A stretch of DNA of 43,734 nucleotides from a virus. Below the pieces are notes generated by a model. The model was not told the DNA's origin, did no database searches, and saw nothing but the letters and a program-made list of their open reading frames with translations. Location of the stretch: the IMG/VR virus record IMGVR_UViG_3300025096_000042, positions 1-43,734 of that record; one strand, 5' to 3'. Each line of letters starts with the position of its first letter. Positions within the stretch are counted from its first letter, which is position 1. The position numbers and the translations under genes are program-made. Positions 14,832 through 39,013 of the stretch are shown here, in pieces.

Positions 14832-17800
14832 ATGGCCAGAATACTTAAAAAACCACTTAAACAGAATCTTTTTAAGATACCTGTTTTAATTGAAGATACT
14901 AAACATTATTCAGAGTATTTTGAGGTATCTCAATTAAATAGAATTTTTCATGCTGGTAAGAACGGATTTTTAATTCGTGGAAGCCGGTTTTTACAGAAAG
15001 GTACTGAGATTTCAATTGAAGTATTGGATAGATATGGCAATTCTGTTTTTGTTACTCCCGTTGCTAACTATACTGAAGCTGGTTCACGATTAGTATCCGT
15101 TGAAATCTTTGAAAAAACACCGCCGGGGCCCGGAAAGCTCATTATTTTGGGAACTGCTAATAAACATTCTGATGGACGAAGTATAGTTCCCCGATGGCGT
15201 GGAAAGCCAAATGTTCGTTGGGTTGTTCCAATTCAAATTGAACCAACGAATCAAAATACTAGTCAAATACGTTTATCAAATGATCCGGTAGCGGTTGTCA
15301 CTCAACAGAGTTTTCTAACCACTCGTATTGATAAGACAGTCAAGGTGGATATGGGTCCGGGCCAACCTACCGTTGATAAATGGAACCGTGAAACCGCTGG
15401 GCCCCACACAGCCTCTTTACAATATAATTACGAAGGTCATAGATCAGATGGTTACGCAATTACTATGATGAGTAGGAGTGGTGCACCATTACCGTTTTTT
15501 GATACAGTAAATACAGATGGATATTTTACAGGTTCAGTTTCTAAAAGAATAATTGAGTCGTCTTCACTTGGGACAATAACTGTTGTTTCAAATCCCGTTA
15601 CTGCAAGTGTTAGTATGTCCCTTGACAAAATTTTAGATGAAACAATTGCTATTACAACAACACCAATTAAATTTGACGATGGGACTGATTATCTTAATCC
15701 AGTTTTAGCATCTGGTTCTTATGAAAGAGTGGTATCGGGAAGTGGAACCTCTAAACAAACAATTGAACAATATACTTCTAGTGTAGTATTTGAATATGTT
15801 TCCGAATCTGTGGCTAGAACTCAGTCCACATCTTCTGTTATAAATTTTAGAATACCAAAGATACAAACAAGTACTGGTGAAATTTCAAAGGTTAAAATTA
15901 GCGCAAAAGAATCAAACAAAGCTATTACAGCATTTCGACCATTTGCAGAATTTGTACCAACCGAACGAAATTTAATTACATCCTCTACCGACATAGGAGA
16001 TTTATCAGCTGGAACATTCCCGGCAACATCTATTTTAGATGATAACTGGTTTGGAGCTTTAATCACCGATCTTGATGGAGATTTTAACCAACCAGCGTAT
16101 GAAAATAGTGGTTCTGGATTTACAGCATCTTTGGTGGTACCAATTGTAACTTCATCAGAAAATATTCTTGAAGGATTCCACGCGGACCATACTTCAAGTG
16201 TTGTGCCGTATTTTGTTGGAACAAAAAATCACCATCAACTTTACAGAGATACCGAATATACTTTAAGATATACCGCAGTTTATACGCCAACTCATGTTAC
16301 TAGTTCTAATAATTCTGCTGTTGCAACATATTCAACTACAAATAGTGGATCAATACGAACATTTTTAACTAGAATTGGAAGTGGTTCTGATGCAAGAACT
16401 AGTTCATCTGTAGCTAATAATGATAATGATGAACCAAGGGAAGTGGGGTCAATTTCAAAATATGGTTTATTGGTTGATAAACTTATTGCACAAAAACGAG
16501 ATAAATCTTTATATGAACGGGAAGTAAATTTTAAAGTACCAAGAGATGGGGTATCTTATTTAAGATTCAAGATTGATGGTGGATTTTGGCATTTTGGAAA
16601 TATTGAAATTACGCCGACTGTTGAGAAGGGATATCATCCAGATGAAATTATTTTCGATGCAGATGCCGCTGGTTTAGTTAATACCACAACCGATTTTAGG
16701 GTTCAGTTTTTAAATTTTGAAGACAACCCTATTGACCATGAGATTATAGTTCCGAATTTCCATGTTTCGAGTAGTAGATTAGTTAAGTCTTTAAAACTAT
16801 CATCAGACATATCATCATTTACCTTTGGCGCAGCAGGAGACATTCTTGGTGAAGAAACAGCTTCTATAACTGTGACATCTACAAATATTCTAAACCCTGC
16901 CTCGATTTCAATACAAGGATTCACCTCTTCATATGGTCCAGTAACTTCATCCTTCTTCAGCGATACTGGCTCTGTAGAGTCGGGGACTGCAGGATCATTT
17001 GACATATATTATACAGCGTTCGGAGAACAATCGGGGTCAAATGATGCTTATACATCTTCCCTTCGTGTTACAGCAACAGCAGATGGAGTTTCTGATAGTA
17101 TAGATGTTACAAGAGCTTCAGCTGGGGGTCAGGGTGGCCCACCGGGAGCTGCTGGTACAGATTCAAAAACAGTGAATTTAACTTCAAATTACTATGTGGT
17201 CGCATATAACGACTCTGGAAGTATGCCAACACCTAGTGTAGATGTAGATGTCGGACTTACTGCATCCGCACAAAATTTTGTCGATCCGTGGTTTAAATTT
17301 ACAGGTGATGGGATTAGTGATGAGACTGAATATATTGATGGTAATAATATTGCAGGTAGTGGAACTGATACCTTTATATGGCCCGTACCAGCTGCTTATT
17401 TTAAAGATCCTCAAACCGTTAAAGTAAGCATACAAGAGGGATCTTCGGGTGGTGAGGTTGCTTATGACTCATTAAGCATAGTCGCAATTAGACCGGGCGC
17501 CGATGCAACTACGGTTATACTTACCAATGAGGCGCATGCCATACCCGCAGATAGTGATGGAGTGGTGACATCATATGCCAATTCTGGTACGGACATTAAA
17601 GTTTGGCAAGGTGCCGCGGCTTTACCATATGATGATTCAGATCCGTATACTTCGGGATCATTTAGAGTTTCAGGTTCGGGAACTAATATAACACCTAATC
17701 CTTACCCATCAACCGTTTCTACATATATACGGCAATATGAGTCCGCATCTAGTATGCCTGATAGTCAAACTAGTGCTTCGATTGCATATACGATAACCGT

Positions 17801-20800
17801 GACAGATATGTCTGGAACTTCAACAGATTATACAAAAGTTCAAACTTTTTCAAAAACATCAGCTGGACCTCCTGGCCCCACTGGCCCAACTGGTGCTGGT
17901 ATTATTTTCCGTGGAGCGTGGTCCCATTCGGTGTCTCCAGCAGTGCAGTATACATCCAGTGCTACAAGAAAAGATGTTGTTCAACATGGTAGTACTTATT
18001 ATGTTGCTAATGCTACCCATGCATCTACTAACAACACAACATCTGGAACTGGTAAACCACCAACAGATCCACCGTGGACTTCTTTTGGAGAAACATTTGA
18101 CGCTATAGCTACGGATCTTTTATTCACACAAGATGTATATGCTAATAAAACTATAAATGTAGGTTCATCTGCTAGCACTCCAATAATTGCATTAAATGCT
18201 GATTCTGGATCAACAGGAGCATATGAGAATCCTTATATTTCTATTGGTCAGGGTCTTAGTCAAGGTTGGAAATCTGGTAGCGGTGGGATCTTTTTAGGAT
18301 ATCATGGTGGAAAAGCTGCACTCTCTATTGGAGGAACTGGTGGATTTATAGTTGATGAGAGTGGAAGTGTGACTGCATCGGCTGCACAACTTAGTGGATC
18401 AATATCCTCATCTGCTGGTGCAATAGGTGGGTGGGAAATCGGTTCTACTTACTTAAGAACCCTAAATAACCCTACACATTTTGTCATAGATTCCGACAAT
18501 GCTTCACTATCTATAAATTCTTCAACCTTTGGAGTTGATGGCATACAACTTCAATTACATGATGACACAGCCGCGGGGAGTCGCCCAAGATTCTTTGTTG
18601 GAAATTCAACTGGTAGTTTTTTCAAATTTGAAACTAGTTCTTCGGTGGCTCCGTTTGGTGCATCCGCATTGTCAATCTCATCATCTAAGTTTAGTCTTAC
18701 AGCTGCAGGACAACTAACCGCCTCAGATGCCCTATTCACAGGTATCACTGTTGTTTCAGGATCTTTTCTTGGAACTCAGATTGCTGATACCACTCAGTCG
18801 ATCATGATTGGACCAACACGATTTAGAACTAACACTGCCGATCCAGATTTAACCAAACAACTTGTAGTTGATTATACTACTATAAAATCTCACCGGATAT
18901 ATAGTGAAGCTCTCAGTGGAACTCCTTATGATGTCGTTCTTGGTACATATAGTACTGACCACTGGGGACATTTATGGCAATTAGTTTTGGATCAATCGTC
19001 TGGGTCGGTGGGCATTGGTACTAATTTTAGGAATAATTCTACTGGAGGAACCCAATCCACACCCAGAGCTAAGTTACACATTTCTGGTTCATCTGCATTC
19101 CCCTCACAATCTCTATTGTTGGCAGGATCGGGAAGTAACGATGTATTACTTGTTGAGGCTCCATATGGGGTCGGTGGTCAGGTTGGTATTAATACGGTAA
19201 GTCCCGACTCTACATTGCACATGTATAAATCAAGTGGAAATACACAATTACACATACAATCTGTATCTGCTGGAGATCCTACGATCAAGATGACGAGTGG
19301 TAATAACAGGATTGGTGTGTTCAATTTCGAAGATGGTAGTACAACGGCACAGATCCATCTTGATCACAACACAGGAAAATTCCATTTTAGGGCGCATAAT
19401 TCGACTGTTGATGATATGACTATCAGTGAAAATACAACATATATTGCAGGCAACACCGCTGTCGGCCACACGGACCCGATCAGTAAATTTGAGGTGAGGG
19501 AAGATGGCGGCCCTGTGTTAAGCCTCACAAATTCAGATGCTTCGATTCTTGATGATAACCAGTTCGGATACCTGAATTTTTATTCCAATGATGATTCCAC
19601 CAATTCAAAGGGTGGAGTCGCTGGGATCGGGGTGTACGCAGATGCTGACTATAACACAGGCGACACTCCTGCCCGAATGGAGTTCTATTGCCATAGTACG
19701 GGGGCTAACGATGGGACCGTAAAAGGAAACCCCAGCCTACGGATGAGCATTGCCGCCAATGGCAACGTCGGCATCGGCGTGGCGATTCCATCTGAAAAAT
19801 TGCATGTAGATGGCGACATAATGGTGAGTAATGGTAGAGGTATTAGAGGATCGGATAGTCATGAAAGAATTAATTTTCATAATACTGATGGTATCCAGAT
19901 GTATACAAGTAATACGCTCGCCCTCGCTCTTGCAGCTGATCAAAATGCTACATTTTCAGGATCAGTCACAGCCAACGCTGGTGTCGTAGTAGATAACATT
20001 ACAATAGATGGACAAGAGATTGATGTAAGTTCTGGTGATCTAACACTAGATGTGGCAGGAAATATCTATCTTGATGCTGATGGTACATACATTTATCTCC
20101 AAGATGCCACAACCTCCGTTGGACTTTTCAAGTTAACTTCATCAGATTTTTATATAAAATCTGTTGTTTCAGATAAGGATATTATATTTCAAGGCAACGA
20201 TGGCGGTAGTGGAATCACAGCCCTTACCCTTGATATGTCAGATGCAGGGACCGCTACGTTTAATAATAACCTCGTTGTCTCTGGTACCATAGAGGCTGTA
20301 GGACCAGTTACCTCATCACAAGCCGTTCTTGTACCAACTGGTGGTAGTGCTACTGCACCAACGGTGGTATTTGGTGACGGAAATACTGGATTTTATGAAT
20401 CTGGTGATAACGATTTATACTTCACTGCTGACGGCACCGCGACCATGATTCTTGAAGAAAATGCGTTTTATGGTGCAATTTCGATGGGACCAAAAATGGT
20501 CAGGGAGACGCCTAGTACAACTAATCCCGTTTTTTGTTTCAATAGTGATGAAGATACTGGTATTGGTAGAGCAGGTGCAAATACAGGATCGTTGGTTGCG
20601 GGCGGCGTCAATGCATTGAACTGGACCAACGCTGGCCGTGTCGGCATCGGCACGGCGAATCCTGCGGAGAAGCTTGAGGTAACTGGAAATATAGCCCTCA
20701 CGGGCAATCCAGATGCACAGCGTTTCATAATGATAAATGAAACGAACACTGGAGAAACAGCACTTCATATACAAGCGGGCGCAGGATCAGCGGCATATGG

Positions 20801-21425
20801 TGGTGGAATTTCCTTATTTGGTCACGCTCACGATTCAAGGGCTGGATATGTAACTGCGGGTATCTCTACTGGTTCTGGCGGTAAGTTCACAGTCAATGCT
20901 TCGGGTATTGCAACTGGTGCAGATGTATTCACGGTAGATGCTTCGGGTAATCTTGTGACTACTGGCGGCGCAATCTTTAACGAAGATGGTGCTGATGTAG
21001 ACTTCAGGGTAGAGAGCGATGGTGAACAGTATATGATCTTTGTCGAAGGCAGCACGGATCGAGTCGGCATTGCTGACAATAACCCAGGTTACACATTAGA
21101 TGTGGGCGGAACCATTTATGCAGATACAGATGTGATTACAGCATCTGATATTCGATTAAAGAATCTGGTCGGTCCCGTTACCAATGCACTTTCCACGGTC
21201 AATAAATTAAATGCTATTCGATATACTTGGAAAGATGATAGAGAAACGGGACAACAAATTGGATTCTCTGCACAAGATGTTCTTGAAGTGGTACCAGAGG
21301 TGGTTCGGGGAAGTGAAGAAGATGAATATGCGATTTCATATGGTAAGTTGGTTCCTGTACTGGTCGAAGCTATTAAGGAATTGACCGCAGAGGTAGAAGC
21401 CCTAAAGAAGAAGTTGGGGGATTAG
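14832..21425 (+). CDS. Long tail fibre with C-terminal S74 intramolecular chaperone (2197 aa)
   Basis: Receptor-binding tail fibre, probably trimeric. The N-terminal about 150 residues look like a virion-attachment domain seen in marine phage fibres. The middle holds Ig-like beta regions and two short collagen-like stretches (GPPGAAG near nt 17140, GPPGPTGPTG near nt 17870). The distal half has repeated VGIG-type motifs (near nt 19010, 19185, 19765, 20640, 21065) typical of trimeric beta-helical shafts. It ends in a peptidase S74 domain: SDIRLK has Ser2105 and Lys2110, the expected self-cleavage dyad with the cut before the Ser, and a C-terminal coiled coil follows. Cleavage would release about 93 residues. 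Some distal segments are GC-richer than the rest, suggesting exchange. No Shine-Dalgarno. Confidence 0.88.
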   Translation: MARILKKPLKQNLFKIPVLIEDTKHYSEYFEVSQLNRIFHAGKNGFLIRGSRFLQKGTEISIEVLDRYGNSVFVTPVANYTEAGSRLVSVEIFEKTPPGPGKLIILGTANKHSDGRSIVPRWRGKPNVRWVVPIQIEPTNQNTSQIRLSNDPVAVVTQQSFLTTRIDKTVKVDMGPGQPTVDKWNRETAGPHTASLQYNYEGHRSDGYAITMMSRSGAPLPFFDTVNTDGYFTGSVSKRIIESSSLGTITVVSNPVTASVSMSLDKILDETIAITTTPIKFDDGTDYLNPVLASGSYERVVSGSGTSKQTIEQYTSSVVFEYVSESVARTQSTSSVINFRIPKIQTSTGEISKVKISAKESNKAITAFRPFAEFVPTERNLITSSTDIGDLSAGTFPATSILDDNWFGALITDLDGDFNQPAYENSGSGFTASLVVPIVTSSENILEGFHADHTSSVVPYFVGTKNHHQLYRDTEYTLRYTAVYTPTHVTSSNNSAVATYSTTNSGSIRTFLTRIGSGSDARTSSSVANNDNDEPREVGSISKYGLLVDKLIAQKRDKSLYEREVNFKVPRDGVSYLRFKIDGGFWHFGNIEITPTVEKGYHPDEIIFDADAAGLVNTTTDFRVQFLNFEDNPIDHEIIVPNFHVSSSRLVKSLKLSSDISSFTFGAAGDILGEETASITVTSTNILNPASISIQGFTSSYGPVTSSFFSDTGSVESGTAGSFDIYYTAFGEQSGSNDAYTSSLRVTATADGVSDSIDVTRASAGGQGGPPGAAGTDSKTVNLTSNYYVVAYNDSGSMPTPSVDVDVGLTASAQNFVDPWFKFTGDGISDETEYIDGNNIAGSGTDTFIWPVPAAYFKDPQTVKVSIQEGSSGGEVAYDSLSIVAIRPGADATTVILTNEAHAIPADSDGVVTSYANSGTDIKVWQGAAALPYDDSDPYTSGSFRVSGSGTNITPNPYPSTVSTYIRQYESASSMPDSQTSASIAYTITVTDMSGTSTDYTKVQTFSKTSAGPPGPTGPTGAGIIFRGAWSHSVSPAVQYTSSATRKDVVQHGSTYYVANATHASTNNTTSGTGKPPTDPPWTSFGETFDAIATDLLFTQDVYANKTINVGSSASTPIIALNADSGSTGAYENPYISIGQGLSQGWKSGSGGIFLGYHGGKAALSIGGTGGFIVDESGSVTASAAQLSGSISSSAGAIGGWEIGSTYLRTLNNPTHFVIDSDNASLSINSSTFGVDGIQLQLHDDTAAGSRPRFFVGNSTGSFFKFETSSSVAPFGASALSISSSKFSLTAAGQLTASDALFTGITVVSGSFLGTQIADTTQSIMIGPTRFRTNTADPDLTKQLVVDYTTIKSHRIYSEALSGTPYDVVLGTYSTDHWGHLWQLVLDQSSGSVGIGTNFRNNSTGGTQSTPRAKLHISGSSAFPSQSLLLAGSGSNDVLLVEAPYGVGGQVGINTVSPDSTLHMYKSSGNTQLHIQSVSAGDPTIKMTSGNNRIGVFNFEDGSTTAQIHLDHNTGKFHFRAHNSTVDDMTISENTTYIAGNTAVGHTDPISKFEVREDGGPVLSLTNSDASILDDNQFGYLNFYSNDDSTNSKGGVAGIGVYADADYNTGDTPARMEFYCHSTGANDGTVKGNPSLRMSIAANGNVGIGVAIPSEKLHVDGDIMVSNGRGIRGSDSHERINFHNTDGIQMYTSNTLALALAADQNATFSGSVTANAGVVVDNITIDGQEIDVSSGDLTLDVAGNIYLDADGTYIYLQDATTSVGLFKLTSSDFYIKSVVSDKDIIFQGNDGGSGITALTLDMSDAGTATFNNNLVVSGTIEAVGPVTSSQAVLVPTGGSATAPTVVFGDGNTGFYESGDNDLYFTADGTATMILEENAFYGAISMGPKMVRETPSTTNPVFCFNSDEDTGIGRAGANTGSLVAGGVNALNWTNAGRVGIGTANPAEKLEVTGNIALTGNPDAQRFIMINETNTGETALHIQAGAGSAAYGGGISLFGHAHDSRAGYVTAGISTGSGGKFTVNASGIATGADVFTVDASGNLVTTGGAIFNEDGADVDFRVESDGEQYMIFVEGSTDRVGIADNNPGYTLDVGGTIYADTDVITASDIRLKNLVGPVTNALSTVNKLNAIRYTWKDDRETGQQIGFSAQDVLEVVPEVVRGSEEDEYAISYGKLVPVLVEAIKELTAEVEALKKKLGD

Positions 21426-23206: not shown

Positions 23207-23210
23207 GTGA

Positions 23211-23239: not shown

Positions 23240-25915
23240 ATGAGAAAGATAGCAATTTACGCCGGTCGGTTCCAACCCTTTCACAAAGGGCACGATTCTG
23301 CGTACAAACAATTGGTTAAAAAATTTGGAGAGGAAAATGTATATGTTGCAACTTCCGAACCCAAGGAAACTTCTGCGAGAAATCCATTTAAGTTTGGTGA
23401 AAAGAAACAGCTTATGACTGCTATGTTTGATATTCCATCAGAACGGGTGGTTCAGGTCAAAAATCCTTACAAACCAGTAGAAGTTCTTTCCAAATTTGAT
23501 CCAAAAAAGACTGCTTTTATAACGGCAGTCGGTGAAAAGGACGGTGATAGACTATCTCATGGTAAATATTTCAAGAAATATGATGCTGACGATGAATTAT
23601 CCCCGTATCAAGACAACGGATACTTTGTAACTGTACCCAATTTCAAAGTAGACAGTGATGTAATGTCTGCCACGAAGATTAGAGATAAAATGGGGAACCC
23701 TGCAATCTCTACTGAAGACAAAATCGACTTTTTCAAGAAATTATATGGAAAATTTGATCCAAAACTCTTCCGTATGATGAAAGACACCATCCAAGACCGT
23801 TCTGTAGAACCTGCAAAGTCGGCTGCACCGAAGAAAACGAAGCGTGATTCTTCAATTCTTAAGAAAAGGGTCACAAATCCCCAAACTAGAAGGGATATAT
23901 TGGTCAGAACCGCGCTTCAATACGACAAAAATCACCCAGTTTATAAACTCGCTAAGAGAATGTTCGAACGGGGACCAATGAAAGAGGTGTTTGAGTCGGT
24001 AATGATTGAAAATGCTCTGATTGATCAATATAATTCGTTAGTTGATAATTTTATTGGTAAAAAAGGAAGTGATTATAAGATTGAGATGGGGGATTCACAA
24101 ACAACCATTGAAGATAAGTGTAAAGAAGCATATAAACAGGGTGTATTTTATTATCCACTGGTTCATGCTCTTGGTACAGTCATAGAAGATGAAGAACCTG
24201 CTTTAGACGAGAAGGAAACCTCAACAGCCCGTGTAAGACGGTTCTATAAGAGACACCCAGAGAGAGTTAGACGGTATTTGAAGAAAACTCAAGATGATCG
24301 TGTGATTAGAAACCGTGATCGACAACGGGCAATCCGTAAACATGGTAAATCAAAGATGAAAAATCACGATGTTCATCATCCAAATGGTGTGAATGGTGGT
24401 AAATGGGTTCTTGCTAAGAAGGATCATGGCCGGGACAGAAAAAACCCGAAGAGTAAGTTAAAGAATGAGGTTTTTCTTGTAGAAGGTGGGGCCGCTGGCC
24501 ACATGATGCACCCATATGAAGATATGGATTTGACGTTTGATGATTATAAAGAGATTATTGATCAAGGTCTTTTAGGTTCAATGGGTGATGAAAAGCCTGT
24601 TACAGAGAAATTAGATGGACAGAATATAGCATTTTCTGTTGTTGATAGTGAAATCAGATTTGCTAGAAATAAGGGACATGTGAAAAATGGTGGTGATAAG
24701 GCCTTGACAGTTAAGGGAATGATGGATAAATTTAAGGATAGAGGTGGTATTGAACGTGCATTTGTAGGAGCGGCCAGAGACCTTGAAACAGCTATTAAAG
24801 TTTTGCCAGACAAACAAGTTAAAGAAATGTTTGGTAATGGAAGTAAATTTATGTCTGTAGAAATTATTTTACCCGATTCTACAAACGTTATTCCTTATGA
24901 CAAAAACGTTCTTGTTTTCCACGGTACTATTGAATATGATAGAGATGGAAAGCCAGTATCTTCAAGTCAGGATGATGCAAAAACATTTAGTGATCAACTT
25001 TTGAAAGTTGGTCAACAAAAACAAAAATTGTTCGGACTTCAAGGACCAAAGGTAATTACGTTTAATAATAAAGATATTAAAAAGATGGAAAAGAAGGCTA
25101 AGAAATTCCATAGAGACATTGATAGACTTAAAAGTGAGTTTGATTTAAAAGATGGTGATCTGGTTCGGGACTATTATGCTAAATGGTGGGAACGTGAGGT
25201 CAAAAAAGAGTTGGAACAAAAAGGACTGACAGCGGATGACGATACAATGGAAGGATTGGTTAATCGTTTTGCTTTTGATGACAAGACAATGCAATTAAAA
25301 GACATTAGAGATCCTGAAATTAGAAAATGGACATCTGAATATCAGAAAACCAGATTGCGTGATGTTAAAAAGGTTGCACAAAATCCATTTGAGATGGTAT
25401 TCTTAAAGGTGGGTGCTAGTTCCTTGGAAAGAATAAAAGATTTCTTAGCATCAAACAACCCTGGCGCAATTGATCAGATTAGAAAGGAACTGAAGACAGC
25501 AATGAATTCAGTAAGAGCAGAAGATGTAAGTGATCAAGCAGAAAAATTAAGAAAGGAATTTGATAGATTAGAACAAGTTGGAATAGATAAGCTGGTTCCA
25601 TCAGAGGGAATTGTGTTTATATATAAAGGACAGCCCTACAAATTTACAGGCACATTTGCTCCATTGAATCAAATTCTTGGTACATTTAAATTTGGTGGTA
25701 AACCAACTGGAGAGCCCGATGTTGGAGCGCCTGGAGCGCCTGCTGGAGCACCGGACCCCGAAAAGGATAAGGATTTTATAAAGAAATACTATAGTGATCG
25801 GGTCAGAAATCCAATGACGGGCAAGGACATCACAGTTCAGTCCGCGTTAACTTATGACAAGACACATCCAGTATATAATGTAGCAATTAGGTATTTATCA
25901 AGTAAAATGGGATAA
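23240..25915 (+). CDS. Multidomain NMNAT-like / HNH-like / KxDG ligase-like enzyme (891 aa)
   Basis: The N-terminus is a nucleotidylyltransferase of the NMNAT/cytidylyltransferase superfamily: GRFQPFHKGH (residues 9-18, HxGH motif) and SATKIR, equivalent to the family ISxTxxR motif. About residues 206-242 form an NPxT-core module. A basic segment with NHDVHHPNG (375-383) resembles an HNH nuclease core. Residues 455-460 (TEKLDG, Lys457) match motif I of ATP-dependent ligases. SEGIVF (788-793) and YKFTG (800-804) match motifs IV and V. A second NPxT module ends the protein. The frame opens at GTG 23207, but that would translate a promoter-like element, so ATG 23240 directly before the NMNAT motif is preferred. 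Substrates are unknown; RNA/DNA end repair or NAD metabolism are possible. Confidence 0.75.
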   Translation: MRKIAIYAGRFQPFHKGHDSAYKQLVKKFGEENVYVATSEPKETSARNPFKFGEKKQLMTAMFDIPSERVVQVKNPYKPVEVLSKFDPKKTAFITAVGEKDGDRLSHGKYFKKYDADDELSPYQDNGYFVTVPNFKVDSDVMSATKIRDKMGNPAISTEDKIDFFKKLYGKFDPKLFRMMKDTIQDRSVEPAKSAAPKKTKRDSSILKKRVTNPQTRRDILVRTALQYDKNHPVYKLAKRMFERGPMKEVFESVMIENALIDQYNSLVDNFIGKKGSDYKIEMGDSQTTIEDKCKEAYKQGVFYYPLVHALGTVIEDEEPALDEKETSTARVRRFYKRHPERVRRYLKKTQDDRVIRNRDRQRAIRKHGKSKMKNHDVHHPNGVNGGKWVLAKKDHGRDRKNPKSKLKNEVFLVEGGAAGHMMHPYEDMDLTFDDYKEIIDQGLLGSMGDEKPVTEKLDGQNIAFSVVDSEIRFARNKGHVKNGGDKALTVKGMMDKFKDRGGIERAFVGAARDLETAIKVLPDKQVKEMFGNGSKFMSVEIILPDSTNVIPYDKNVLVFHGTIEYDRDGKPVSSSQDDAKTFSDQLLKVGQQKQKLFGLQGPKVITFNNKDIKKMEKKAKKFHRDIDRLKSEFDLKDGDLVRDYYAKWWEREVKKELEQKGLTADDDTMEGLVNRFAFDDKTMQLKDIRDPEIRKWTSEYQKTRLRDVKKVAQNPFEMVFLKVGASSLERIKDFLASNNPGAIDQIRKELKTAMNSVRAEDVSDQAEKLRKEFDRLEQVGIDKLVPSEGIVFIYKGQPYKFTGTFAPLNQILGTFKFGGKPTGEPDVGAPGAPAGAPDPEKDKDFIKKYYSDRVRNPMTGKDITVQSALTYDKTHPVYNVAIRYLSSKMG

Positions 25916-27174: not shown

Positions 27175-28758
27175 ATGACTGAGAATCTAAAAGATATTAT
27201 TAAAAAAGAATATCTAAAATGTGCATTGGATTGTGAATATTTCCTAAGAAAGTATTCTTATATCCAAGTACCTAATAAGGGCCGCCAACTTTTTGAATTA
27301 TATGATTATCAAGCAGAGGCTCTTGCTGCATTTCGGGACCACAAGTATAATATTGTTTTAAAGGGTAGACAGATTGGTATATCTACTCTTGTGGCTGGAT
27401 ATGCTTTGTGGAGAATGTTATTCAAACGAGATGAACAGATTTTGGTCATTGCTATTAAACAGGAAGTTGCTAAAAATCTGGTAACTAAAGTTAAGTTTAT
27501 GCACCAACTGCTTCCTGTTTGGTTGAGGGGAGATCTTGTTGAAGATAACAAACTTACTCTCAGATTTGGTAATGGATCAACCATTAAAGCAACCGCAACC
27601 CGTGAATCCGCTGGTCGTTCGGAAGCTCTTTCTTTATTAATACTTGATGAAGCTGCTTTTATTGATGGTGCAGATGAAATATGGACATCTTCTCAGGCAA
27701 CCCTATCTACTACAGGTGGTTCGGCTGTATTAGTTTCAACTGCTAATGGTGTTGGTAACTTTTTTCATAAAACATGGACAGAATCAGAAGCAGGAGAAAA
27801 TGATTTTCATAGAACCCTGTATGATTGGAGAGTACATCCCAATAGGGATGAAGAGTGGGCTGAAGAACAACTTCGTCAAATGGGAGAACTTAGATTTGCT
27901 CAAGAACACGGTGCATCATTTATTTTCTCTGGAAATACTGTCATATCTGCAGAAATATTAGAATTTTATAAACAAACCTTTGTTCAAGAACCAGTGCAAG
28001 TTCGTGGATTTGATAATAATTTATGGGTATGGCAACAACCGGACTATACAAAATCGTACATTGTTGCGGCTGATGTAGCTCGTGGTGATGGAGAAGATTA
28101 TTCCACATTTCATGTAATTGATGTAGATGCTTCTGAACAGGTTGCAGAGTATCGGGGTAAAATAACTCCAAAAGATTTTGGTAATCTTTTAGTAGCCGCT
28201 GCTACTGAATATAATGATGCAATTATTATCCCCGATAATTCAAATATTGGTTGGACTTCTATCCAACAAATTATTGATCGTGGATATGATAATTTGTTTT
28301 ATATGAGTAAAGATTTACAATATGTAGATACTATGCACCAAATGACGAGTAAACACTATTCAGAAGAAAAGAAAATGGTTCCTGGCTTTACAATTTCTCA
28401 AAAAACAAGACCTTTATTGATTGCTAAATTAGAATCATATATGAGAGAACAATCAATTACAATTCGTTCATCTAGAATGATGACAGAATTGGATACATTT
28501 ATTTGGAAAAATGGAAAAGCAGAAGCTTTGGGTGGATATAATGATGACTTAACTTTGGCTTTAGCAATTGGGTTGTGGGTAAGAGATACCGCTTTACGGT
28601 TAAGATTAGAAGGAATAGAATTGAATAAACAAATGTTAAATAGTATTTCTGGTAAATATACAAAGGCTGTATTTACTTCTGATTCACAAAAGGAAAAAGA
28701 TGCTTGGGAACTTGATGTCGGCCAGGAAAAGGAAGATATAAGATGGTTACTGGGTTAA
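27175..28758 (+). CDS. Terminase large subunit, gp17-like (527 aa)
   Basis: Packages phage DNA into the prohead using ATP and cuts the concatemer. The N-terminal ATPase has a deviant Walker A, KGRQIGIST (63-71), lacking Lys at the usual GK position, and Walker B LLILDE (Asp158, Glu159). A coupling-type segment STANG follows at 188-192. The C-terminal RNase H-like nuclease shows IVAADVARG (Asp300), IIPDNSN (Asp354) and a YNDD motif near residue 460, matching the acidic triad of gp17-type nucleases. The length is near the family norm (T4 gp17 is 610). It lies upstream of portal. No small terminase is recognisable in the window. Shine-Dalgarno poor. Confidence 0.92.
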   Translation: MTENLKDIIKKEYLKCALDCEYFLRKYSYIQVPNKGRQLFELYDYQAEALAAFRDHKYNIVLKGRQIGISTLVAGYALWRMLFKRDEQILVIAIKQEVAKNLVTKVKFMHQLLPVWLRGDLVEDNKLTLRFGNGSTIKATATRESAGRSEALSLLILDEAAFIDGADEIWTSSQATLSTTGGSAVLVSTANGVGNFFHKTWTESEAGENDFHRTLYDWRVHPNRDEEWAEEQLRQMGELRFAQEHGASFIFSGNTVISAEILEFYKQTFVQEPVQVRGFDNNLWVWQQPDYTKSYIVAADVARGDGEDYSTFHVIDVDASEQVAEYRGKITPKDFGNLLVAAATEYNDAIIIPDNSNIGWTSIQQIIDRGYDNLFYMSKDLQYVDTMHQMTSKHYSEEKKMVPGFTISQKTRPLLIAKLESYMREQSITIRSSRMMTELDTFIWKNGKAEALGGYNDDLTLALAIGLWVRDTALRLRLEGIELNKQMLNSISGKYTKAVFTSDSQKEKDAWELDVGQEKEDIRWLLG

Positions 28759-32273: not shown

Positions 32274-32742
32274 AAAGCATTTTAGAGAACTCATTAGAGA
32301 AGTAATTCGAAGAGAGTTAGATGAGATGACCGCGACGGGGGCCGTTGCTGGTTTTGAAACTCCTCACGCGTTTGCGGGAAAGTCTGCAAAAAATAAAAAG
32401 AGGATAAAAGATATTGCTGAAAAGCTTGGGTGGAAATTAACTGCGCGCGGTAAAGAAGCTCTTAATAGAAAAGTAGATGAGATGATCAGTGAAGGAACCT
32501 CTAAATATTATAAATTTAGAAATGATCAAGAAAAAACGGCTAGACAAAAAATTGGACTATCAATTCGTGAGGCAAAAAAGGCATTGGGGTTTGTTAATGC
32601 TCAATTAAAAATTCTATCAAGATATAAAAATGAGTTTGGATATACAGCGGAAAGTTACTGGAAGAGAACATTAAAAGATATTTATAAAATTGAAGAGAGA
32701 ATTACAAAAATTTCTCAAAAACTTAGAGAGTTAAAAACATGA
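32266..32742 (+). CDS. Putative prohead core protein with possible capsid-targeting helix (158 aa)
   Basis: The N-terminus (EKHFRELIREVIRRELDEM) is an amphipathic helix ending in L-D-E, followed by TATGAVAGFETPHAF, a segment I recall from many marine phage proteins. L/I-x-E is the cleavage site of T4 gp21 protease, and the neighbouring gene encodes that protease, so the helix may be a cleavable targeting peptide. The rest is basic and helical. The ATG overlaps the preceding gene by 8 nt and the stop overlaps the protease start by 4 nt. Position matches T4 gp67/gp68. No function is proven. Confidence 0.5.
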   Translation: MNEKHFRELIREVIRRELDEMTATGAVAGFETPHAFAGKSAKNKKRIKDIAEKLGWKLTARGKEALNRKVDEMISEGTSKYYKFRNDQEKTARQKIGLSIREAKKALGFVNAQLKILSRYKNEFGYTAESYWKRTLKDIYKIEERITKISQKLRELKT

Positions 32743-33323
32743 GTCAACTTTTAGTAGAACAAAATCTTCTATATTATGATAATGAACTTATCAAAGAAGC
32801 TCACAATTCAAGTAAGCCTCTTGTTTTACGACATGTTACTCTACAACAGGCAAATTCAAAAAATCAAAATGGTAGAATTTATCCAAGAAGGATTTTAACA
32901 AAAGAGGTAGTTCGATACCAAAAGGAATTTGTTGAACAGAATCGTGCTTTGGGTGAATTAGATCATCCCGAAAGTCCAATAGTTAATTTAAGAAATGTTT
33001 GTGCTAATGTTACTAAAATTAATATGAATGGAGATTCTGTAGTAGGAGATATGCAAATTCTCTCAACTCCAGCTGGTAACATTGTTCGTGAACTGGTTAA
33101 AAATAACATTCGGCTTGGTGTAAGTAGCCGCGGCGTGGGCAGTGTAAAAAATGTTAATGAAGATACTCTTGAAGTTCAAGAGGATTATAGTTTAATTTGT
33201 TTTGATGTAGTTTCCAACCCATCGACGCCAGGCGCGTTTATCAACGAAAGCCTTGATCCCATCCCCCAACTTGTGGTGAATATAGATTCTTTGATTTATG
33301 ATTTCTTAGCAGAAATAAAATGA
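32739..33323 (+). CDS. Prohead maturation protease, gp21-like (194 aa)
   Basis: Serine protease that cleaves scaffold, capsid and core proteins during head maturation. Family hallmarks are NGRIYPRRIL (44-53), the catalytic His in GELDHPE (His76), and the catalytic Ser in GVSSRGVGS (Ser129 or Ser130). The order matches T4 gp21 (family S77), and the length is close to T4 gp21 (212). The start overlaps the upstream stop in ATGA, and its own stop overlaps the next start the same way. Context between core-like proteins and scaffold supports the assignment strongly. Confidence 0.9.
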   Translation: MSQLLVEQNLLYYDNELIKEAHNSSKPLVLRHVTLQQANSKNQNGRIYPRRILTKEVVRYQKEFVEQNRALGELDHPESPIVNLRNVCANVTKINMNGDSVVGDMQILSTPAGNIVRELVKNNIRLGVSSRGVGSVKNVNEDTLEVQEDYSLICFDVVSNPSTPGAFINESLDPIPQLVVNIDSLIYDFLAEIK

Positions 33324-37699: not shown

Positions 37700-38053
37700 A
37701 TGACCTATAAACCATTAATGATAATTGCTACACTTCTTATGTTGTTCCCCACCCAAGCATTTTCGCAGGATTGGGTCCGCCGTCTCGCTTATGTAGATCG
37801 TCCAGATAAACTTGTTGAACGAGTAATGGAAGACGAACCAATAACATATACGAGAGATGTTGCACCAATTCTTCAACAGAATTGTCAGATATGTCATCGG
37901 GCGGGATCTGTTGCTCCTATGTCTTTTATTGAATTTCGTGATGTTCGCCGTTATGCTCGTAGAATTAAAGATCAAGTTGCTAGACGGTTAATGCCTCCGT
38001 ATCATCTTGATACAGGAGTGGGTATTCAAGAAGTCAAGAATGATTGGAGATAG
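37700..38053 (+). CDS. Exported mono-haem c-type cytochrome domain (117 aa)
   Basis: Predicted periplasmic electron carrier or haem protein. Residues 1-22 are a Sec signal peptide (Lys4, a hydrophobic core, cleavage after AFS). TYTRDVAPILQQN leads into the haem-attachment site CQICH (62-66), with His66 as axial ligand; RRLMPPYHLD supplies Met98 as a probable second ligand. This arrangement matches the N-terminal cytochrome module of larger bacterial proteins in which a KND-type segment continues into LSDEE and further domains. Here translation stops right after VKNDWR, giving a mature domain of about 95 residues. Two stops occur within 6 nt and no frame restores the family continuation, so it is a trimmed, stand-alone version. 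A strong Shine-Dalgarno argues it is expressed. Confidence 0.8.
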   Translation: MTYKPLMIIATLLMLFPTQAFSQDWVRRLAYVDRPDKLVERVMEDEPITYTRDVAPILQQNCQICHRAGSVAPMSFIEFRDVRRYARRIKDQVARRLMPPYHLDTGVGIQEVKNDWR

Positions 38054-38287: not shown

Positions 38288-39013
38288 CTATTCTCCATTT
38301 CCAAGTGATCGTTTGATTACACCTTTTGCTATTTGATGGGCAGGGTGTGTTTCGCCGTATTTAAGTGCAGTTTTAATTAATATCTGGTTACCAGTATTAG
38401 GATTTGTTACTCTTTGTTTTAATAATTGTGCTAATTTACCTACATTTTTACCTCTTTTTTTAGTAGGATCTTCTTTTTCATATCCTTGGATAAGTGGTTC
38501 ATATTCTGATTTAGGAACTAAGTGGGTTTGCAGATCAACATTTAGATCTTTGGCGATTCCTTTAACTGCATCTACATTTTTTTCGTGGTCATCAAAGAAT
38601 CTAACTGTGGTATAACCTTCTTTTTTGATTTTATTAGTTATATAGTGTGATTTTGCTCGTGGGCTTGCCGATTGTACACCCTTGATTCTGACATCCTTGG
38701 TAATTCCTATTGATTTCAGATATTTAGCAATTTGTTTTTCACTACCAATGCCTCTTGCAGTGATGATAGTTACATCGGCGTCTGGGTGTTTTATTGCTTT
38801 TTTGAATAAGTCCATATACTTTTTAACTGGTTTTGGATCTTTTATCTCCGAAAACTCTGAAAAATCAAATTCGTCGCCATCTTTTTGTACATACCCAGCA
38901 TAATCATATGGAGTTAACTGACTAACTTCTCCATCATTATGTTTTACAATAACCTTAGAATTTGAGACTACTAGAGTATTGTCAAAATCAAAAGCATATA
39001 GGGTTTTTGCCAT
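38288..39013 (-). CDS. HAD-family phosphatase with C-terminal NPxT module (241 aa)
   Basis: Haloacid-dehalogenase-type hydrolase. The catalytic motif is AFDFDNTLV (Asp9 nucleophile, Asp11 acid/base, Thr13). TITARG supplies motif II near Thr85, Lys111 or Lys121 may be motif III, and FFDDHEKN (Asp141, Asp142) is motif IV. The layout recalls phosphatase domains of polynucleotide kinases and small phage nucleotidases; no kinase P-loop is present. Residues 197-232 form a C-terminal module (LKQRVTNPNTG, then TALKYGETHP) shared with two places in the 891-residue enzyme at 23240. The gene is on the minus strand, divergent from the neck genes. A nucleic-acid end-processing role beside the ligase-like protein is an inference. 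Confidence 0.78.
   Translation of the reverse strand: MAKTLYAFDFDNTLVVSNSKVIVKHNDGEVSQLTPYDYAGYVQKDGDEFDFSEFSEIKDPKPVKKYMDLFKKAIKHPDADVTIITARGIGSEKQIAKYLKSIGITKDVRIKGVQSASPRAKSHYITNKIKKEGYTTVRFFDDHEKNVDAVKGIAKDLNVDLQTHLVPKSEYEPLIQGYEKEDPTKKRGKNVGKLAQLLKQRVTNPNTGNQILIKTALKYGETHPAHQIAKGVIKRSLGNGE

Follow-up and report, generated by a model that had tools for sequence, protein, structure and literature searches.

Fusion gene and domain layout

What does a phage gain from joining an NMNAT-like domain, an HNH-like block and a ligase-like domain in a single protein? The question is raised by an 891-residue product encoded in IMG/VR record IMGVR_UViG_3300025096_000042, of which the 43,734-nucleotide stretch analyzed is here called the window. 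The gene is one uninterrupted frame from ATG 23240 to its stop codon, as the preliminary description had stated, and an upstream GTG at 23207 is a possible alternative start. From the N-terminus, the modules follow in the order NMNAT-fold domain, first copy of a repeat module (REP1), HNH-like block, ligase-like domain (LIG) and second repeat copy (REP2; Table 1). The repeat module and a helical insertion within LIG are additions to that description. The motifs quoted in it all lie where they were placed: HxGH at residues 15-18, SATKIR at 143-148, NHDVHHPNG at 375-383, KLDG (with Lys457), EGIV at 789-792 and YKFTG at 800-804. Those of the NMNAT and ligase parts exceed chance, since the N-terminus is matched by Pfam, PHROG and PDB-profile searches and ligase motif I is kept in 72 distinct relatives. 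Of the three folds proposed for the fusion, the NMNAT superfamily and RNA-ligase-like folds were borne out by predicted models, whereas the HNH-like part had no Pfam match and a low-confidence model. The combined architecture had also been put forward as undescribed. We found no description of the order NMNAT-REP-HNH-LIG-REP in the literature searched; however, it fits a published class of phage multi-enzyme chains, the polyvalent proteins (PMC5512222), and HNH-RNA ligase fusions have already been reported (PMC7824862).

Table 1. Features of the fusion gene and of other window genes discussed in the text
Feature	Residues	Position	Strand	Evidence
Fusion gene NMNAT-REP-HNH-like-LIG-REP	1-891	23240..25915	+	Open frame; identical architecture in 11 distinct IMG/VR proteins
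NMNAT-fold nucleotidyltransferase domain	1-192	23240..23815	+	Pfam CTP_transf_like 2.3e-8; VIA Z 12.8 to NadM
REP1	205-250	23852..23989	+	Profile matches in window clade, HNH-LIG-NMNAT clade and HAD gene; model
Possible prohead-protease-type site at border of REP1 and next module, putative cut between PMKEVFESVMIE and NA		23987..24022	+	[LIVMF]xE[AGSN] match
HNH-like block, KMKNHDVHHPxG...LAKKDHGRD	330-400	24227..24439	+	Strong conservation in 14 rows
LIG, predicted ligase-like adenylyltransferase domain	412-824	24473..25711	+	Model; VIA matches; motif I in 72/72
Helical insertion in LIG between motifs IIIa and IV	~615-782	25082..25585	+	Secondary structure of model
REP2, C-terminal repeat copy	845-891	25772..25912	+	Profile E 2e-18
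Large terminase subunit, landmark downstream of fusion gene		27175..28758	+	tblastn to 2387 phage records
T4-type prohead protease (gp21 family)		32739..33323	+	Pfam Peptidase_S77 3e-27
Pol-beta nucleotidyltransferase gene, family fused to LIG in L086		33711..34448	+	NTP_transf_2 6.5e-4, just under cut-off
HAD-family protein, 241 aa, with C-terminal REP		38288..39013	-	PHROG 415 polynucleotide kinase 1e-6; REP blastp 9e-8

The N-terminal NMNAT-type domain

Besides the Pfam match, the N-terminus was matched by PHROG 395 (2.3e-14) and, in a profile search, by NMNATs of the PDB (4e-6). In a structure model of residues 1-411 (mean pLDDT 78), the predicted fold agreed with the NMNAT superfamily and was closest to NadM (2qjt; VIA Z 12.8 over 167 residues, rmsd 3.5). 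Phosphopantetheine adenylyltransferase was nearly as close (VIA Z 11.9), so that the model identifies the fold without singling out a substrate. The domain has the fold, HxGH and SxTxxR in common with NadM and NadD; unlike these, it is without a Nudix or kinase partner and is fused to a ligase-like domain. SxTxxR was present in 52/54 relatives. HxGH was kept in the window clade, but roughly half of the relatives have lost it (intact in 21, changed to GxHH in 25). The preliminary description had named loss of conservation of Lys457 and HxGH among homologues as counter-evidence; this loss was seen for HxGH, outside the window clade, and not for Lys457, which is invariant.

These matches bear on a reading centered on NAD, in which the NMNAT domain would restore NAD+ drained by defense NADases and the ligase-like domain would be a passenger or use NAD-derived signals. 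The closest structures are indeed NadM and NadD enzymes, phage NAD+ salvage has been proposed as counter-defense (PMC9503650), and NMNAT-like proteins have repeatedly been detected in virion proteomes (PMC9602691). However, every NadM phage is reported to carry NadV as well (PMC9503650), and no NadV was recognized among the genes examined in the window, which is a fragment. Moreover, 25 relatives have GxHH in place of HxGH, but the motif I lysine of LIG never varies, which makes the ligase look the more constrained part. We consider a purely NAD-directed function unlikely.

A predicted RNA-ligase fold in LIG

LIG carries the core ligase motifs I (residues 456-460), III (539-543), IIIa (559-562), IV (789-793) and V (800-804), all present and in order. 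Motif I (EKxDG, with Lys457) was invariant across 72/72 distinct relatives, and motifs IV and V were found in 67/72 and 65/72, respectively, under a strict pattern. When a model built from 49 sequences (pLDDT 83; pTM 0.80) was compared with the PDB by VIA-align, the best match was Naegleria RNA ligase (Z 8.9; rmsd 3.9 over 186 residues); further matches included T4 Rnl1 (Z 8.6), Trl1 (8.3) and T4 Rnl2 (7.7), and the best 35 rows held only RNA and DNA ligases and no unrelated fold. In Foldseek, the leading match was T4 Rnl1, although its E of 0.013 is weak. The insertion between motifs IIIa and IV spans about 170 residues, with helices at model residues 217-384. At the sequence level, the Pfam RNA_ligase model (PF09414) reached 16.5 bits against a gathering cut-off of 27, matching at motif I, and such weak, sub-threshold matches recurred in 36/52 LIG members. 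The assignment of fold rests on the model, since a PDB sequence-profile search with LIG returned no RNA or DNA ligase. We conclude that LIG is predicted to be an RNA-ligase-fold domain, in keeping with the ligase-like part of the original proposal.

Some sequence comparisons were set aside. The hhalign score of LIG against T4 Rnl2 (26.1) did not exceed that of a reversed control (26.3) and was rejected as proof, hhalign against T4 DNA ligase aligned nothing at motif I, and a PHROG 645 "RNase E" match (4e-4) was discounted as spanning only about 50 residues. Because the T4 Rnl2 comparison was no better than its control, the preference for RNA over DNA as substrate rests on fold ranking and on the domains that accompany LIG.

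The competing possibility is repair of ends or nicks in the injected genome, with LIG sealing DNA and the HNH-like and ParB-like domains of relatives nicking it. DNA ligases are among the structural matches (VIA Z up to 6.7), the window clade has the HNH-like block, and ParB-like motifs occur in relatives. Yet all DNA ligases rank below the RNA ligases in the structure comparison, for which reason membership of LIG among the DNA ligases was ranked lower. In addition, motif I of LIG continues GxN, as in T4 Rnl2, and the CCA-adding enzyme and Pol-beta nucleotidyltransferase fused to LIG in relatives (see below) point to RNA. We regard DNA as a quite unlikely substrate.

A large phage family with shuffled modules

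A profile search of IMG/VR with LIG confirmed at least 592 stretches that encode the domain, and no Pfam or PHROG model describes it. Among 84,980 cellular genomes, matches were confined to four small MAG contigs, which look like binned phage contigs and were not accepted as a cellular LIG family. LIG is thus a previously unrecognized, large RNA-ligase-like family, and it is paired with an NMNAT-type partner in hundreds of ocean phages.

Five multi-domain architectures were found among LIG relatives. The order of the window clade occurred in 11 distinct proteins, HNH-LIG-NMNAT-REP-REP in 4, HNH-LIG-NMNAT in 2, LIG-NMNAT-REP in 1, and NMNAT-LIG without REP in 36; a further 18 relatives had LIG only, mostly at contig ends. 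Additional enzymes had joined the chain in some relatives. A CCA-adding enzyme was fused to LIG in 3/38 long relatives (L042, L051 and L081; Pfam 1.4e-30), a P-loop domain (Zeta_toxin/AAA_33) in two (L064 and L079; no PDB relative at 0.01), and a Pol-beta nucleotidyltransferase directly in L086. Some relatives also had HExxH and ParB-like GNTRL or DGHHR motifs. In L003, the gene after a stand-alone LIG gene encodes an NMNAT domain. The 657-aa protein encoded at L003:7253-9223 has its NMNAT near the C-terminus, and strings in its N-terminal half could be another ligase-like core. In Flavobacterium phage immuto, the closest isolate by terminase, no LIG was found in the surrounding 20 kb.

The REP module is a beta-hairpin with helices and has the pattern NPxT..xIxVxTALxYxxxHPxYxxA. 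It lies after the NMNAT module or at the chain end, and a third copy in the window forms the C-terminus of the HAD gene. The HNH-like block occupies different places in relatives. Its HH and DHG residues are conserved, pLDDT was below 65 over most of the motif, and the block is a putative HNH domain.

The cyanophage DUF6267 branch

A second branch emerged from comparison of LIG with the cyanophage DUF6267 proteins. The hhalign score was 43.6, against 28.4 for the best of 100 shuffles. The alignment covered an N-terminal H..H.xED signature, motif I and VFH, and a second, collinear piece covered motifs IV and V. Profile comparison thus points to DUF6267 as a remote homologue of LIG. The two remain distinct: the Pfam DUF6267 model (PF19782) had no match listed for the window protein or LIG members, and cyanophages mostly keep two separate genes.

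DUF6267 relatives were present in 465 of 50,697 phage records, and an NMNAT gene lay beside DUF6267 in 77/80 loci. Motif order and NMNAT neighbor are as for LIG. Fusion occurs here too. In BFVD, the LIG model picked out a 591-aa protein of S-PM2 (probability 1.00), which agrees in length and domain name with S-PM2d138 (L186:2992-4767). The latter is annotated hypothetical and is a DUF6267-NMNAT fusion. An ORF annotated NrdB (L188:1995-4181) resembles another such fusion and looks misannotated. Given the LIG-NMNAT fusions, the adjacency in L003, the DUF6267-NMNAT neighbors and the S-PM2 fusion, two divergent branches have repeatedly paired NMNAT with the ligase, either fused or as neighbors.

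Such repeated pairing would suit a ligase that takes AMP from NAD+, with the fused NMNAT and ATP turning the released NMN back into NAD+. This cycle is, however, improbable. No NAD-specific Ia-type domain was recognized, relatives with GxHH may lack NMNAT activity, and the sole sign of kinship with NAD-dependent ligases is one weak match to Pfam DNA_ligase_aden (E 0.024). A more elaborate version, in which the phage head would carry the cycle as an RNA-repair polyprotein that the prohead protease cuts into separate enzymes and that many marine T4-like phages share, is very improbable.

Head-gene setting and virion evidence

The fusion gene belongs to a late, head-associated neighborhood, and in 66 cases the large terminase gene starts 0.5 to 3.3 kb downstream of the LIG gene. 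This constant location beside terminase and head genes is what a head-assembly protein would show, its enzyme folds being relics that serve structure. Against that idea, to which we give very little credence, motif I residues are invariant, motifs IV and V are conserved, the domains shuffle freely, and extra enzymes have been added. Two other window genes on the plus strand were noted. A 117-aa ORF just after the major capsid gene (37700-38053) has a signal-like N-terminus and a CQICH heme-binding-like motif, and its product is similar to part of a c-type cytochrome from bacteria. A 2197-aa fiber-like protein (14832-21425) contains collagen-like stretches (GPPGPTGPTG) and ends in an S74-type chaperone-like region.

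The cyanophage NMNATs beside DUF6267 offer a closer view of packaging. They begin MRFRQFIIEA, MRFIEFLREA and similar, and T4 IpII and IpIII begin MKTYQEFIAEA; in T4 internal proteins, such N-terminal propeptides direct targeting to the prohead and are cut off by the prohead protease (PMC5694885, PMC3012670). A capsid-targeting-like N-terminus was found in 76/76 of these NMNATs (L102:10390-11478 and L106-L185) compared to 2/506 other ORFs of the same loci; since the pattern was designed with these N-termini in view, it is the contrast, not the 76/76, that counts as evidence. In S-SZBM1 and S-CREM2, the NMNAT was the only CDS with the pattern among 62 and 32 examined, respectively. Virion mass spectrometry has detected an NMNAT-like protein in S-SZBM1 (PMC9146016), S-CREM2 (PMC10665884) and S-SCSM1 (PMC9602691), and the authors of PMC10665884 allow that virion matches could be contaminants. 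We found no statement of this N-terminal sequence for cyanophage NMNATs in the literature searched.

The virion-detected proteins lie outside the window clade. The cyanophage NMNAT partners match T4 IpI-III and Alt in their N-termini, but the window protein has no capsid-targeting sequence at its own N-terminus; for that reason, we infer its packaging in the head by analogy. Internal sites of the prohead-protease type were found at the REP1 border, where the match is kept across the window clade, and before LIG. In L028 and L034, a module similar to the one that follows REP1 begins near the protein N-terminus. Sites of the form (hydrophobic)xE(AGSN) were by rough estimate no more frequent than chance and are too short for significance, only their placement at module borders being notable.

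Candidate RNA-repair partners and a proposed role

The published phage RNA-repair set comprises CCA-adding enzymes, Pol-beta nucleotidyltransferases of the RlaP kind, polynucleotide kinases, HAD phosphatases and ATP-grasp RNA ligases (PMC7824862). Two window genes resemble members of this set. The Pol-beta nucleotidyltransferase gene sits between the prohead protease and scaffold genes. Its product has relatives in Maribacter phages, Lak phages and cyanophages and is 31% identical to S-CREM2 gp156, which is among the virion proteins detected by mass spectrometry (PMC10665884). The HAD gene lies on the strand opposite to its neighbors and, judging from sequence, is a possible 3'-phosphatase partner. 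No 5'-kinase was recognized in the 44-kb fragment.

The preliminary description had left the role between nucleic-acid repair or modification and a link of NAD chemistry to RNA or DNA ends. Repair is favored, because RNA-repair domains (CCA-adding enzyme, P-loop kinase and Pol-beta nucleotidyltransferase) are fused to LIG in relatives, evidence that is one of association only; linking of NAD chemistry to nucleic-acid ends is speculative. With a probability of about one half, we propose that the fusion gene is a late gene of a marine T4-like phage and encodes a polyvalent, head-associated enzyme, which is most likely packaged in the head, injected and engaged in repairing RNA, chiefly tRNA. The protein would be co-packaged and enter the cell with the DNA, where host or phage RNA cut by host defense nucleases would be repaired. 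LIG would self-adenylylate on Lys457 and seal 5'-phosphate/3'-hydroxyl RNA ends. The Pol-beta nucleotidyltransferase and HAD gene products of the window may restore or clean such ends, as might the fused CCA-adding enzyme or P-loop kinase in relatives. The NMNAT domain could make NAD+ or a related dinucleotide, either offsetting NAD-depleting defense or feeding NAD-dependent end processing. REP, which marks module ends, may bind a common partner, and module borders may be where the prohead protease cleaves the protein. To our knowledge, NMNAT is not an established participant in RNA repair.

Relation to known systems and significance

By its several enzyme domains, their variable order in relatives and the late head-gene context, the window protein can be classed with the polyvalent proteins. 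The part of the polyvalent-protein study considered here (PMC5512222) describes long multi-enzyme chains of variable order in a late head-gene setting, as for LIG proteins, together with the zincin-like HExxH and ParB-like motifs also seen in some LIG relatives. In that part, however, RNA ligases appear solely as stand-alone phage enzymes, and the NMNAT-ligase core and REP module are not described. The enzymes found together with LIG in relatives are of the types known from phage RNA repair, with its T4 Pnkp/Rnl1, Rnl2, HNH-Rnl2 fusions, CCA enzyme and RlaP (PMC7824862). LIG differs from those ligases in falling below the Pfam RNA_ligase cut-off, in its large helical insertion, in being joined to NMNAT and in its place within the head gene cluster. 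We conclude that the fusion, with an unrecognized RNA-ligase-like family at its core, is a variant of the polyvalent phage enzymes that are probably packaged in the head; judging indirectly from the virion proteomics of cyanophage NMNATs, it would be delivered into the host with the DNA.

A very common, unannotated domain of ocean phages (more than 590 IMG/VR stretches) thereby gains a predicted RNA-ligase-like adenylyltransferase fold, and by homology DUF6267 gains a predicted ligase-like fold too. The recurrent NMNAT-like protein of cyanophage virions is given a reason to be there, in its ligase-like partner and its T4-like head-targeting sequence. If the proposed role is true, many marine phages would deliver a first-aid kit for RNA along with their genome, making repair possible before phage gene expression.
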